Below, piece by piece: positions 19,962 through 29,475 of a stretch of 30,338 bases of DNA; position 1 is the stretch's first letter; each line of letters starts with the position of its first letter. The stretch covers positions 1 to 30,338 of the IMG/VR virus record IMGVR_UViG_3300045922_000603; one strand, given 5' to 3'. This DNA is from a virus. A model generated the notes under the pieces. That model did no database searches and was not told the DNA's origin. It saw only the letters and a program-made list of their open reading frames with translations. The position numbers and the translations under genes were made by a program.

Positions 19962-20183
19962 ATGGCTGAGTGGCGACCGAAACCGGAATACAAAGGTAAG
20001 ATTGTGTACATTCCGAAACTCTATAAGGAAGTACACATCACCGATAACGCCGACTTGCTGCGACAGGAGCTGGGGGACTTGTTCGATGTATTTTTCGAGC
20101 GGTCCCCCGCCCCGCCCTCCGAGCGTAATCTCGTAAAAGGCGTAAAAGGCAAAGACTTAGGAAAACCGTCCGAAGATGAGTAA
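19962..20183 (+). CDS. Small unknown protein after the tail tube
   Basis: A 73-residue protein with a hydrophilic N-terminus (RPKPEYKGKIVYIPKLY), a central amphipathic helix (ADLLRQELGDLFDVFFE) and a Lys-rich tail. It overlaps the portal gene by 8 nt. Its position between tail tube and portal suggests a small chaperone or connector role. No motif supports a specific function. Confidence 0.62.
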   Translation: MAEWRPKPEYKGKIVYIPKLYKEVHITDNADLLRQELGDLFDVFFERSPAPPSERNLVKGVKGKDLGKPSEDE

Positions 20184-21894
20184 GGCGCGCGTTACATATG
20201 ATTTTCGGCGAATAGAACCACCCCGTCTGACCTATAGCCCAGCACGGGGTGAATTCTATCGGTATGGAGATGACAACCTCTATCCGTACTATCTCAATGC
20301 GTATCTCGAAAGCCCTATACATAAGGGCATCATCGAAACGAAAGTCTACTACATCACGCAGGCGCGGAAAATCCTATATCCGAATGCCGATGGGCTCTGG
20401 ATTGAAGACGGGCTCACATGGGCGCAATATATGGAGCAGCTTGCCCGCGATTACGAAATCAGCAACCAGGCTTATATAACCGTTCGGCGGGTATCGAACG
20501 GGTGGCTGTTAGGCTCTATACCGTTCTACAAAGTTCGCGTTGGCACGAATTTTGATAAGTATTTCGTTTCCGAAAACTGGACGCGTCCTATAGACAAGAC
20601 GGAAATCCCCGACATATCGCAAATGCCGATAGCTGACCCTCCTGTCGGTCAAATCTATATCTATCGGCTTGCGGCAACCCCTACGCCTGCGCTCTACGAC
20701 TTAGAGAATCGGTATTCGCTAACCTCCCTTGTCTATCCCCAACCGACGTATGCAGGGGGAATATACGCTATCCTTGCCGACATCGAGTCACAGAAATACC
20801 AATACCACGAAATTGCGAATTCGTTCAAAGGCGGTACGCTGGTCGAGCTGCCAGACTTTTTCAAGACCGAAGAAGAACGGGCAGAGATTGCGCGGCGAAT
20901 CAAAGAGGAACTAACCAGCTCCACAAGCGAAACGGGAATTGTTGTGTCGTTCCGTGCCCCTGGCGCCGACCAGGGAGCAAGTATTCAGCCGATTTCTGGT
21001 TCAGACACGGCGGCACGCTATTCGACTGTGCGTCAGGACATTATCACGTCAATTGTTGTCGCGCATTCGGTAACCTCCCCCGAACTTATCGGCGTTGCAA
21101 TCCCTGGGCAACTGGGTGGAACAACGTCGCGCGAAGAGTCGTATGCAATTTTCGAGCAGACCTATATTGCGGGGCGGCGCAACGCGCTTGTAACCGCGAT
21201 TAATAAGGTTTTGAAGCTGCTAAAGGTGCCCGCGCAAATCACCGTCGAACAGCCCGAAACGCAGGGGCAAACGATGGTATCGTTCGCGTCCGTTGATACG
21301 GTCGTTGACTTATTTGCACGGTCGGGGATGCCGCGGTCGAAGGTGTCGGCGTGGATTGCGTCGGAACCCGTCGTGGGGCGTGATGATTGGCATGCGGTCT
21401 TGGAATATACCAGCCATGAAGAATTTCGACCTGCATACAAGCCGACCGAACAAGATTTGATGTTGATTGAAATGGTATCGGCAGGCAGCGACCTAAACCA
21501 TATAATCCAGGCATTCCAGGGCAAGCGGTCGGAAGTCGTCCGGCGGCTTGCAAACCTTATAAAGCTGGGCTATATAAAGATGCCCGACGGGAACAATCCC
21601 CTACGTCCAACCGTCAAGGGGCTTATCGCGATACACGGGCGCCAAAACCTGCGGGTGGTCTATACATACGAAGAGCGCCCCGACGCTCCACCGCTACTGA
21701 CACAGTCGCGCCCGTTTTGCCGGCGAATGCTCTCGCTCAACAAGGCATACACCCGCGACGAGATCGACCGTATTAGCTCGATCATCGGTCGTGACGTATG
21801 GACCTACCGCGGCGGGTGGTACCACAATTGGCAGACGGGGCAAAACGAACCCGCTTGCCGACATGAATGGCGTCAACATCTTGTGCGAATCTAA
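20176..21894 (+). CDS. Portal protein with extra C-terminal domains
   Basis: A 572-residue protein forming the DNA channel at the capsid vertex. The first about 370 residues have the portal pattern: FYRYGDDNLYPYYLNAYLES near the start, a clip region, and a long stem helix region (EEERAEIARRIKEELTS). Two additions follow: a winged-helix-like stretch (about 430-470, EVVRRLANLIKLGYIKMPDG) and a C-terminal Cys/His domain (about 497-572) with C515 in SRPFCRR, YRGGWYHN and C561-x-H563. Similar endings occur in Bacteroidota portals and may be a fused minor head module. The stop shares one base with the next ATG (TAATG). Confidence 0.82.
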   Translation: MSKARVTYDFRRIEPPRLTYSPARGEFYRYGDDNLYPYYLNAYLESPIHKGIIETKVYYITQARKILYPNADGLWIEDGLTWAQYMEQLARDYEISNQAYITVRRVSNGWLLGSIPFYKVRVGTNFDKYFVSENWTRPIDKTEIPDISQMPIADPPVGQIYIYRLAATPTPALYDLENRYSLTSLVYPQPTYAGGIYAILADIESQKYQYHEIANSFKGGTLVELPDFFKTEEERAEIARRIKEELTSSTSETGIVVSFRAPGADQGASIQPISGSDTAARYSTVRQDIITSIVVAHSVTSPELIGVAIPGQLGGTTSREESYAIFEQTYIAGRRNALVTAINKVLKLLKVPAQITVEQPETQGQTMVSFASVDTVVDLFARSGMPRSKVSAWIASEPVVGRDDWHAVLEYTSHEEFRPAYKPTEQDLMLIEMVSAGSDLNHIIQAFQGKRSEVVRRLANLIKLGYIKMPDGNNPLRPTVKGLIAIHGRQNLRVVYTYEERPDAPPLLTQSRPFCRRMLSLNKAYTRDEIDRISSIIGRDVWTYRGGWYHNWQTGQNEPACRHEWRQHLVRI

Positions 21895-25790: not shown

Positions 25791-26231
25791 CTAACCTGCG
25801 GTTGGACCATTGTCGACGTGGATTCGGGAGCCGATCCCAAATATACAGCTGCCGCCAATTGTGACTTTCCAGTACAAGATCGTCTCCTTGCCGAATTCGC
25901 AGAAAGATGAGATTACAGACCAACTGTGTATCACGCATGAATTACCAAATCGGCAATGCTTGCCAAAGATGCAGCTGAAGCCAAACTTACACTTATCGCC
26001 AAAGACACAGCCGCGTCCAAAAATGCAGCGGTCTCCGAATTGGCAGTTCTTTCCGAATTTGCAGCCATAACTAAAATGCGTATCATCGGCGAAAATACAG
26101 TCGTTGGCGAAATGCGTATATTTCGGGAACTCACTTATCTCGGAGTAGTCCCCCATTGGGCAGAATATGCCTCCATCTTTGAGACGACGGAATTTTTTTA
26201 GGTCGTCTTCTGTATACTTTTTGAGATTCAT
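25791..26231 (-). CDS. Cysteine-ladder hexapeptide beta-helix protein 2
   Basis: A 146-residue protein. Cysteines fall exactly every six residues at 57, 63, 69, 75, 81, 87, 93 and 99, with further in-register cysteines at 45, 111 and 129. The repeat is C-x-F-G-x-x, which is the left-handed beta-helix hexapeptide [LIV]-[GAED]-x-x-[STAV]-x with Phe and Cys in the two inward positions. It has an N-terminal helix and FCPMGDYSEI, shared with its paralogue upstream. ATGA-coupled start with a strong GAGGAGG ribosome site; the frame is open to 26276. Similar Cys/Phe/Gly-repeat proteins are known to me from gut phages, without an established function. Metal binding, disulphide ladders and protein mimicry are all possible. 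Confidence 0.8.
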   Translation of the reverse strand: MNLKKYTEDDLKKFRRLKDGGIFCPMGDYSEISEFPKYTHFANDCIFADDTHFSYGCKFGKNCQFGDRCIFGRGCVFGDKCKFGFSCIFGKHCRFGNSCVIHSWSVISSFCEFGKETILYWKVTIGGSCIFGIGSRIHVDNGPTAG

Positions 26232-26788
26232 TGCCCTGCCTCCTCGTTGTTGAAGTAGATAGGTCCGCGTGACCATGCGGCTGATGAGTCACTAAAACCG
26301 AGATAAAGTACACTATTGATCCCAAATCGGCAACTTCTACCAAATTGGCAACCACAATACAACACCGTCGATTCGCCAAATGTACAGTTGTCACCGATAG
26401 TACTCCATTTGCCAATTGTGCAATTGTCGCCAAAGACGCAATGATTGCCGATGTGGCTTTCTCCACCTATCTTAGCACCGTCACTTATCACGCATCCGTC
26501 ACCAAAAGCTACGTTGTAGCCAAATTTACAGTTCTTACCAAACCTGCAATTTTTACCAAACGACGTGGCGTGTTCAAACGTGCAATTATCGCCAAATGAG
26601 CAATTATCGCCGAAAAGGCAAGTATGTGTAAACTCTGTATCCGCGCCAAATATGCAATTGTCGGCAAAATCGCAGCTCTCCTCAAACTTATGTATAAAGC
26701 TGTAATCACCTGATGGGCAATTGCGCCAACCGATGTCAAAAGTATCGTGAGGAAGCTTGTCAAAGTCAAAATGTGTGTATCTCTTCAT
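26228..26788 (-). CDS. Cysteine-ladder hexapeptide beta-helix protein 1
   Basis: A 186-residue paralogue of the next gene. It starts with FDKLPHDTF and NCPSGDYSFI (23-32), then carries an unbroken six-residue register from 39 to 159 with Cys at 39, 45, 57, 63, 69, 81, 87, 99, 117, 123, 135, 147 and 153 and with T, V, A or S at the remaining steps. F-G pairs follow the cysteines. At 18 residues per turn this would be about seven coils of a left-handed beta-helix, with no acyltransferase-type active site recognisable. It starts within the preceding stop (ATGA) and has an AGAGGTG ribosome site. The last two genes of the early operon encode these paralogues. Confidence 0.82.
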   Translation of the reverse strand: MKRYTHFDFDKLPHDTFDIGWRNCPSGDYSFIHKFEESCDFADNCIFGADTEFTHTCLFGDNCSFGDNCTFEHATSFGKNCRFGKNCKFGYNVAFGDGCVISDGAKIGGESHIGNHCVFGDNCTIGKWSTIGDNCTFGESTVLYCGCQFGRSCRFGINSVLYLGFSDSSAAWSRGPIYFNNEEAGQ

Positions 26789-27030
26789 TGCTGCACCTCT
26801 TGAGTAGTGACCGTCGTCGGTGGCAATGTAACGCCGTCTGCATAACGCAGCACCTCATCAATCCCAGCTGCCTTCAAGGCTTGGGCAATAAGAGCAAGAT
26901 CGTTGGGCGTTGGAGTCCCATAGCGTCGACGGGTAATTATGTTCGACCGCTCTTTCTTTGGGACACCAATTGCTTTGAGCATTGGTTCGAGTTTCAACAT
27001 GTACAGGCAATTTTGGATATTAGCATCCAT
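26785..27030 (-). CDS. Small Cro-like or HTH-like protein
   Basis: An 81-residue protein. The region ERSNIITRRRYGTPTPNDLALIAQALKAAG (27-56) has the layout of a small DNA-binding helix-turn-helix: a basic recognition-like turn followed by a helix ending in LKAAGID. Evidence is weak, and a regulator of the early operon is only a possibility. A GAGGTG ribosome site precedes the start; the gene ends in an ATGA overlap with the first beta-helix gene. Confidence 0.5.
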   Translation of the reverse strand: MDANIQNCLYMLKLEPMLKAIGVPKKERSNIITRRRYGTPTPNDLALIAQALKAAGIDEVLRYADGVTLPPTTVTTQEVQQ

Positions 27031-27449: not shown

Positions 27450-27725
27450 TCAGTCCTCCGTCGATAATAGTATATGTACTTCTTTTGTGCCTTCGCCATT
27501 GCAAAGTGGGCATTCAACTTCTTCATTTGGCGGAGGTGAATCGTAACCTTGACTGCTCCACCATAACCGATATTCTGATTCGGGGAGCATATTGCCTTTC
27601 GTCCCGAATTGCTGCCAGTATCGAGCCCAGGCCGGATGCTGAATTATTCCTGTGCCTTTACAGTCAGGGCATTCGATCAGTGCATTGACTTCTATAGCTT
27701 TTAGTTTTCCAAGACCGATTTCCAT
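27450..27725 (-). CDS. Cys4 zinc protein (DnaJ-like zinc knuckles)
   Basis: A 91-residue protein with two knuckles, CPDCKGTG (19-26) and CPLCNGEG (72-79). CxxCxGxG is the zinc-binding unit of DnaJ-type zinc fingers. Two such knuckles, separated by a Trp-rich middle (ARYWQQF, RLWWSS), could bind one zinc ion. No J-domain is present, so it is not a DnaJ chaperone; nucleic-acid or protein binding is likely. A strong ribosome site, GGAGGACTAAAA, precedes the ATG. Confidence 0.7.
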   Translation of the reverse strand: MEIGLGKLKAIEVNALIECPDCKGTGIIQHPAWARYWQQFGTKGNMLPESEYRLWWSSQGYDSPPPNEEVECPLCNGEGTKEVHILLSTED

Positions 27726-27727
27726 TT

Positions 27728-28690
27728 TTAGTCCTCCAGATATAGTTTGTACTCTGTTTTTGTACCGCCAGGGACATAATAGGCTTCGTATAGTTCTGGC
27801 TTTTCCGCTTTCAGACGTTTCGCGTCCACGCGACCAGGCAATTTGCGTTCGCGTGCCTCTGCAAGTAGCGTGCCATCAGGCATCGTTAGGCGTTCGGGGT
27901 AGCCGTACATAGCTACAAGCTCATCGACCAGTGCATCCCGCATTTTCTCGAGCGCAGTTAGCGTCTCTTGTATAGCTTCAATTTGCGTCTCTAATTTTCG
28001 CAGGTCTTCAACACGATAGACGTGTTCAGACAGCAGCGCGTCAGTCGTTCCGGACTTGATTGCTTCTGGTTCGATATTCTTATGTGACCGCGGCGGCTCT
28101 TTGCCCGTCGCGATGTAGTTCACCCAGAACTCGTGGCACGCTGAATTGACCGCCGACCATAGTTCCCGCACGTCATCCCAAAAGACGTCGAATTCCGTAT
28201 ACCGCATTGCCGCAAGGTACACCACGCGGGCGGCGGTCTGCTCGTGGACGAACATTTGGCACGCAATTTGCGCAAGGTAGTACGGGGGGACTTCGGTGAC
28301 GCTTCGGGCACTTGTTTTTGCCTCGATGATCATTCGATGCTTGGCGTCGTAGCCGTCAATCGTTGCGCGATAAATATCGCGGTGCTTCTGCAGCTGTCGG
28401 CTACCGACTTCGACCCCGTGACGGCGCTGATAGATTTCGAGGATATCGTCTTCAAGTAGCGTGCCAATTTCCATGGCTTCGGTTGGTTGGGTTTCCTGTC
28501 CCTTCACGATTGCCGCCCAGACGTCACGCGGGGTTTGCCACGGGGATAGCCCCGCAACGGCAGCGACTTGGCTGGCGCCGATGTACTTTTTCTCAGTGTC
28601 GTCGAGCTTAGCAAGTAGCGATTCCGCCTCGGCAAGCTGCTCATCTAACTTTCGCCTCTCTTCTTCGTAGCTCTTATATACCAAGTTCAT
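27728..28690 (-). CDS. YqaJ-like recombination exonuclease
   Basis: A 320-residue protein of the YqaJ/lambda-exonuclease-like PDDEXK group, which resects DNA ends to expose a strand for annealing. Visible signatures are GASQVAAVAGLSPW (38-51), E80 in GTLLEDD, D112 in IDGYD and E123-x-K125 in IEAKTSA, the core E-D-ExK arrangement. A C-terminal coiled coil (about 230-268) may mediate oligomerisation. Starting at 28690 (ribosome site AGAGGAA) gives the full domain. It is ATGA-coupled to the annealing-protein gene, the usual phage recombinase pair. Confidence 0.87.
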   Translation of the reverse strand: MNLVYKSYEEERRKLDEQLAEAESLLAKLDDTEKKYIGASQVAAVAGLSPWQTPRDVWAAIVKGQETQPTEAMEIGTLLEDDILEIYQRRHGVEVGSRQLQKHRDIYRATIDGYDAKHRMIIEAKTSARSVTEVPPYYLAQIACQMFVHEQTAARVVYLAAMRYTEFDVFWDDVRELWSAVNSACHEFWVNYIATGKEPPRSHKNIEPEAIKSGTTDALLSEHVYRVEDLRKLETQIEAIQETLTALEKMRDALVDELVAMYGYPERLTMPDGTLLAEARERKLPGRVDAKRLKAEKPELYEAYYVPGGTKTEYKLYLED

Positions 28691-29475
28691 AGTAATTCCT
28701 CTTGTTTTGGTTCGACATTTTTCGCTTGCTTCGGCTCGACGTTCGGCAGCGCTTTCAATCGCGTGATCATGCTCGAGGCGATCGCTTTCGAGGGCGGCTC
28801 GATGTATTCGACGCCCTTCTGTTGGCACAGTGTTTGCAGTAATTTGATCTGCGCTTCGGTCGCGGGGGGTTCGTTCGGTTGTGATTGTTGTTGTTGCTGC
28901 CGAGGTAGGTCGCTAAACGGGTCTTCTTCGTATCGGTATTCCGACCCTACAACGGTTCGGTCTGTATCTTCACCGGCGACGGCGATGCCGGTGACCGCTA
29001 AGAATGTAATTCGGCAACCGGTTGTGCGGGCGGACACATGCAGGGCACGGGCAGACATGTAGTCTCCCGATTCCAGTGGGCAGGTGAACGTTGCGGTCTC
29101 TGAATGCCCGTCGCGATGGACGAGTCGGCAAGTTGTCTCGACGCCTTGTTCGGTTGCGCGGTGCTCCCAGGACCAGCTGAAGCCGTGTTTCGTCAGCACG
29201 GGACCAGCGACCGCGATAAGGTGATCGAGCGATGCGTAAGTGTACTGATAGGCGTCCCCCGTTCGACGGCTTTTGATTCGCGCCGTTCGGTTCGGGGCGA
29301 TAACGCCAATTTCGGCTAATGCAGCCGCTTTTGCCTCGCGGTATGCTTGCTGCGCAAGGTACCGGTCGACCTGGATTTTTAGGTCGATTAGTTTCTGCAG
29401 GGCTTCCACGTTGCCGGTCTTTGACTGGTCGGCAATAACCTGCAGCAAGTCCAGTTGTTGTTTTTGGGGATGCAT
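28687..29475 (-). CDS. ERF-like single-strand annealing protein
   Basis: A 262-residue protein likely to pair complementary single strands in phage recombination. YTYASLDHLI (78-87) followed by a KHGFSWSWE strand and, later, TGIAVAGEDTDRTV (about 162-175) fit ERF-type proteins. A Gln-rich hinge (about 193-202) leads to a small C-terminal helical domain (TEAQIKLLQTLCQQKG). Its partner exonuclease gene is coupled by ATGA. No clear ribosome site precedes 29475 and there is a 34-nt gap from the upstream gene, so translation is probably from the early leftward mRNA. Confidence 0.78.
   Translation of the reverse strand: MHPQKQQLDLLQVIADQSKTGNVEALQKLIDLKIQVDRYLAQQAYREAKAAALAEIGVIAPNRTARIKSRRTGDAYQYTYASLDHLIAVAGPVLTKHGFSWSWEHRATEQGVETTCRLVHRDGHSETATFTCPLESGDYMSARALHVSARTTGCRITFLAVTGIAVAGEDTDRTVVGSEYRYEEDPFSDLPRQQQQQSQPNEPPATEAQIKLLQTLCQQKGVEYIEPPSKAIASSMITRLKALPNVEPKQAKNVEPKQEELL

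Follow-up and report, generated by a model that had tools for sequence, protein, structure and literature searches.

The window, by which we mean the whole stretch of DNA that was analysed, is a virus record of 30,338 bases from an uncultivated, temperate phage. Its plus strand carries genes for an integrase, a DNA methyltransferase, a terminase, a tape-measure protein and an endolysin. The nearest relatives of the terminase are from Bacteroides and Phocaeicola phages, at only 33-34%, and a comparison of the phage DNA aimed at its host gave no near DNA match. After the tape-measure gene, a 572-aa protein with portal-like PHROG matches (20176-21891, plus strand) is found in an order that is unusual for a tailed phage. 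At the right end of the window, the minus strand carries an early-type operon with an ERF annealing protein, a YqaJ/RecE-like exonuclease, several small genes and then two adjoining genes, A and B. The features of this operon are as follows.

28690..29475, minus strand: ERF-type single-strand annealing protein, in the operon of A and B
27731..28693, minus strand: YqaJ/RecE-like exonuclease, in the operon of A and B
26788..27030, minus strand: small protein of 81 aa, immediately upstream of A in the same operon, kept in contig L001
26231..26788, minus strand: protein A, 186 aa, acidic (net charge -9), with an N-terminal cap, a 21-hexad solenoid and a low-confidence tail (open reading frame, profile and AF2 model)
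26681..26788, minus strand: residues 1-36 of A, the N-terminal cap with the motif CPSGDYSFI, a cap that also occurs in B, in L001 and in dozens of phage relatives
26303..26674, minus strand: residues 39-162 of A, the hexad array, with Cys at 13 of 21 steps, Phe or Ile at position i and Gly at i+1
25794..26231, minus strand: protein B, 146 aa, basic (net charge +4), with an N-terminal cap, a solenoid of about 17 hexads and a short tail
26124..26231, minus strand: residues 1-36 of B, the N-terminal cap with CPMGDYSEI
25920..26063, minus strand: residues 57-104 of B, eight Cys hexads in a row (CxFGxx, ending with CVIHSW)

The coordinates of A and B exclude the stop codon. The stop of A and the start of B overlap as ATGA, and a GAGGAGG Shine-Dalgarno sequence lies just upstream of B. 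The list of open reading frames contains an alternative upstream start for B (161 aa); relatives share the internal ATG at 26231. The same operon also encodes a 91-aa protein (27450-27725, minus strand) with two CxxC-type zinc-ribbon motifs and weak Anti-TRAP/DnaJ matches, which is replaced by a different 182-aa ORF in the corresponding part of L001.

The first-pass annotation described A and B as coupled paralogues with cysteines in a six-residue register, eight in a row in B and at thirteen of 21 steps in A. Their relation as paralogues is supported, and both a recount and shuffling agree with the described register. Eleven of the twelve Cys of B share a single mod-6 register, in which residues 57-99 supply an unbroken run of eight steps; thirteen of the fifteen Cys of A do so between residues 39 and 159, and the remaining eight of the 21 register steps hold T, S, A or V. 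The register count of each protein was reached in 0 of 20,000 shuffles of that protein, as was the run of eight in B (0 of 20,000), while the longest Cys run of A is only three and is unremarkable alone (1,320 of 20,000 shuffles).

One close relative was found, the 30-kb contig L001, which has the same gene order and carries A and B behind the same 81-aa gene. Its identity to the window is about 75% for A and 61% for B (overall range 61-76%), and every in-register Cys is kept (13 of 13 and 11 of 11), so that the Cys positions are conserved in this homologue. Sorted by position in the hexad, identity is 95% for Cys, 86% for Phe and 81% for Gly, against 53, 53 and 44% for the three outward sites; the core is thus fixed and the surface is changing between phages. 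A has a dN/dS of 0.16, indicating purifying selection, and for B synonymous change is saturated. The dN values of A (0.14) and B (0.29) are higher than those of two operon neighbours, the exonuclease (0.064) and the 81-aa gene (0.075), and this faster protein change could reflect relaxed constraint instead of an arms race. The counterparts in L001 have net charges of -8 and +6, so that the opposite signs are preserved.

A search of viral contigs for DNA that would encode three CxFGxx hexads matched 117 stretches, and removal of low-complexity sequences left about 90 distinct proteins, of which 73 have the N-cap motif. Arrays of the kind first noticed in A and B are therefore carried by dozens of other phage contigs. 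A typical member reads MKKYTQEEFDALPVVDG-x-x-x-CPTGDYSxI, followed by CxFGxx hexads and then a C-terminal module; A and B both have the N-cap, whose motif is of the CPxGDY type, and the hexads. Complete arrays in the family comprise 5 to 41 hexads, and Cys fills roughly 91% of the relatives' array sites, a figure biased by the search pattern. By motif, the C-terminal ends are PHROG_20532-like with GCFxG in 54 cases, a PYWDExGKH tail in eight, a PPLE/helical tail in six and IGCxNF in five, and six relatives, including that of B in L001, have none or another type. The PHROG_20532-like module is thus found in the majority of members, though not in every one, and is not strictly family-defining; A and B gave no PHROG_20532 match in the PHROGs library, and both end shortly after the array without a C-terminal module. 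Tandem paralogues are seen in L014, L017, L051, L097 and L105 as well, and the array charge per hexad ranges from -0.77 to +0.60 across the family (the array of B has a net charge of +3). In L040 (866-1565), the array is out of frame and the C-terminal module lies in another frame, probably a broken copy of which L084 is the intact relative. Among the matches listed by a pattern scan of genomes, almost all were low-complexity or antisense arrays, and this result says nothing on host or on absence from genomes.

In the PHROGs library, A matches the phage families PHROG_5353 (7e-15) and PHROG_2154 (2e-8) and B matches PHROG_5353 (6e-8); both entries are without a function and, in contrast to A and B, no cysteine pattern is noted for them. 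The Pfam model for CCCH zinc fingers scores above its cut-off on the CxFG arrays of L099, L119, L014 and L069, which is an annotation trap. These matches are short, score on spaced Cys and Phe/Gly in arrays without regular His, and were rejected as composition artefacts.

The place of A and B at the end of a recombination operon, which had seemed unexplained from the window, has a parallel in the family as a whole, whose named neighbours are largely replication and recombination genes. Among the neighbours of the relatives, 207 of 258 ORFs (mechanical ORFs, not curated genes) lie on the same strand. When 140 neighbouring ORFs were scanned against PHROGs, 20 of the 25 most frequent families were named, mostly for replication, recombination and DNA modification. 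They include polymerase, exonuclease, SbcC, Sak4, RusA, methyltransferase, primase and ligase families, as well as an HTH protein, a radical SAM protein and an ATPase, and no virion protein is among these named families. The position of A and B in the window fits this neighbourhood.

Both proteins match the Pfam Hexapep model (PF00132) above its gathering cut-off of 27, A with 61.4 bits (4e-17) and B with 29.2 bits (7e-7). In PDB sequence comparisons, A, B and their joint profile match left-handed hexapeptide proteins, above all LpxA and LpxD. Structure prediction with AF2 gave a beta-helix for each protein. The model of A, in which the block of residues 41-140 has a pLDDT above 90, comes from a four-sequence alignment and is weaker than that of B, which was obtained from 39 sequences and has a mean pLDDT of 94-95 in all five models. 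AF2 is, however, overconfident on repeats and overpredicts solenoids (PMC11795689).

The hand of the helix is less clear than the fold. When both models were compared by VIA-align with left-handed chains, Z was high (11-16), yet the rmsd was 11-12 Å, whereas right-handed chains (pentapeptide proteins and pectin-degrading enzymes) superposed at 2-4 Å, and the B model superposed on Thermus bactofilin at 2.0 Å over 101 residues. Since a distance-based Z is blind to mirror images, the models of A and B are most simply right-handed. Foldseek TM-scores are low for both models, and the fold assignment therefore rests on the VIA-align rmsd, DSSP and sequence. The literature records disagreement on the handedness of bactofilin itself (PMC6590870). 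Overall, of the left-handed beta-helix proposed in the first-pass annotation, the beta-helix is supported by Hexapep and AF2, while the hand is divided: sequence favours left and the AF2 models favour right.

Hexapeptide acyltransferases follow a rule of an aliphatic residue at i and a small residue (S/T/A/V) at i-2. Like other hexapeptide left-handed helix proteins (LpxA/LpxD, GlmU, gamma-carbonic anhydrase, eIF2B epsilon), A and B repeat every six residues, place Gly directly behind the inward residue and a small residue at i-2, and give significant profile and PDB sequence matches. They differ in having Phe in place of Ile/Val/Leu at i and Cys in place of S/T/A/V at i-2. Therefore, the contrast with the acyltransferases that was drawn from the sequence is real, but the statement that inward positions are aliphatic in those enzymes was too broad, as not all are. 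The placement of Cys at the small inward position beside an inward Phe agrees with Hexapep, with the AF2 models and with the high identity of both positions relative to the outward ones.

The C-terminal module of the family is not confined to cysteine arrays. The PHROG_20532-like module is also carried on Ala/Val hexads of the YdcK type (PF18836) in Ruminococcus phage phiRM10 gp34, in Bacteroides phage BF766P1 and in bacterial genomes, and on pentapeptide repeats in EBPR siphovirus gp3. The YdcK-type phage proteins share this module with most CxFG relatives; they have a different N-terminal cap, and A and B lack the module that they carry. In phiRM10, gp34 also has recombination genes beside it, as the Gam-like and Rad52-type genes follow it directly. 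The mixed hexapeptide solenoid of Shewanella phage Thanatos-1 has a C-terminal end of the same type as the CxFG relatives. Some of the solenoids bearing this module are poor in Cys, so rods with the module do not require Cys. The chief ground for assigning the function to the rod, and not to its thiols, is that one module sits on Cys, Ala/Val and pentapeptide rods.

Arrays differ in length by steps of one hexad. L028 and L074 differ by five hexads and are 98.3% identical over 6 kb, L069 and L121 differ by fifteen and are 99.8% identical over 2.4 kb, and L047 and L061 differ by five with 1.3 kb of identical DNA nearby; in metagenome contigs such differences may be real slippage or partly assembly collapse. 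A tie of hexad number to whole 18-residue coils was considered and rejected, as complete arrays have n mod 3 = 0, 1 and 2 in 14, 16 and 23 cases, and, for the commonest loop type, the GCF module lies at distances of 2, 8 and 14 mod 18 in 6, 6 and 5 cases. An array thus need not be a multiple of three hexads long, which leaves the C-terminal end free to point towards any face.

The function is one that we infer from this anatomy. The reading we favour, tentatively and at somewhat less than even odds, is that A and B are early, cytoplasmic, non-enzymatic accessory binding rods of a widespread phage family. Each coil would be built from six-residue sides, Cys-x-Phe-Gly-x-x, with Cys and Phe packed inside as a redox-silent core in which Cys serves as a small hydrophobic residue, and with the variable x residues forming the flat outward faces of the rod. 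The two proteins would be co-translated, remain in the cytoplasm and be expressed early, and their outward faces may contact a component of the host, of its defence or of phage replication early in infection. In most relatives, the separate C-terminal module at the end of the rod would also contact that component. This reading is consistent with the register and its conservation, the purifying selection on A, the architecture, the length variation, the neighbourhood and the absence of a conserved His column in alignments of 4 and 39 sequences. Acidic A and basic B probably act as a pair. As they lack the C-terminal module, their role may differ from that of most relatives.

Several other functions were weighed. 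In the first-pass annotation, a role of the cysteines in metal binding or redox stress was considered, and the exact register of eight to thirteen Cys, none of which is lost in the nearest relative, together with the high share of Cys at the array sites of the relatives, would suit ladders that bind metal for storage or sequestration or that buffer redox stress. Such a role is weakened by the occurrence of the same module on solenoids of the Ala/Val and pentapeptide types, which contain hardly any Cys or none; A itself has other small residues at eight of its steps, and the Cys are predicted to face inward next to Phe and would be poorly accessible, so that a thiol function appears quite unlikely. 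Mimicry of DNA or a nucleoprotein, by which the rods would inhibit gyrase or a DNA-binding defence protein as the pentapeptide proteins MfpA and Qnr (PF00805) do, is also unlikely. The early-type operon with recombination genes, the acidity of A and a model rod geometry near that of pentapeptide helices (rmsd about 3 Å) point towards it, and both groups are rod-like beta-solenoids. The pentapeptide proteins, however, have a five-residue repeat and a four-sided coil, and their profile matches neither A nor B. B is basic, and because the family contains rods of either net charge, the mimicry raised earlier is unsupported as a family trait.

A filament of the bactofilin type, with A and B stacked end to end into a polymer, is improbable. 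The three-sided geometry of bactofilin is near that of the B model, and the opposite charges and the lack of a large C-terminal module in A and B would suit stacking, but the Bactofilin profile (PF04519) has no match to A or B up to E = 1, the conserved N-cap and the C-terminal modules of relatives should hinder stacking, and the geometry itself comes from AF2 and its tendency towards solenoids on repeats. There is only a slim chance that A and B are virion or tail components. A related solenoid, TH1_197 of Thanatos-1 (L244:3818-4780), is located between the baseplate genes gp6 and gp7, and some relatives may accordingly have a structural role as virion parts; A and B, in contrast, lie on the strand opposite the structural genes and inside a recombination operon, and virion proteins are missing from the named neighbour families listed for the relatives. 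An acyltransferase acting on a host or phage sugar or lipid is highly improbable. The best named profile matches are LpxD, LpxA and GlmU, but all are far below the NCBIfam family cut-offs, the genes lie among replication and recombination genes and not among sugar genes, and this candidate was rejected for want of a conserved His.

The solenoid class is already known; the Cys/Phe variant, the architecture of caps and modules and the variable length are apparently undescribed. No paper on such proteins was found in the open-access literature, and Pfam, PHROGs and NCBIfam hold no name for the family beyond generic hexapeptide or spurious zinc-finger matches. It is possible, if rather doubtful, that the binding rods constitute a new class of early phage accessory proteins, whose conserved caps and exchangeable end modules are borne on a solenoid that changes in length one hexad at a time and has interchangeable chemistry (Cys/Phe, Ala/Val or pentapeptide), rod length and surface being the evolving trait, for instance for counter-defence or for taking over the host. 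The family is a naturally occurring set of rods with fixed ends, in which the effect of rod length and surface in infection can be probed, and it can test whether Cys-Phe packing gives a stable beta-helix, and of which hand. A natural near-arrayless version is found in the bacterial genome L247 (G252:C87; class of a Lachnospiraceae MAG), where the N-cap and the C-terminal module are joined by an array of about one hexad.
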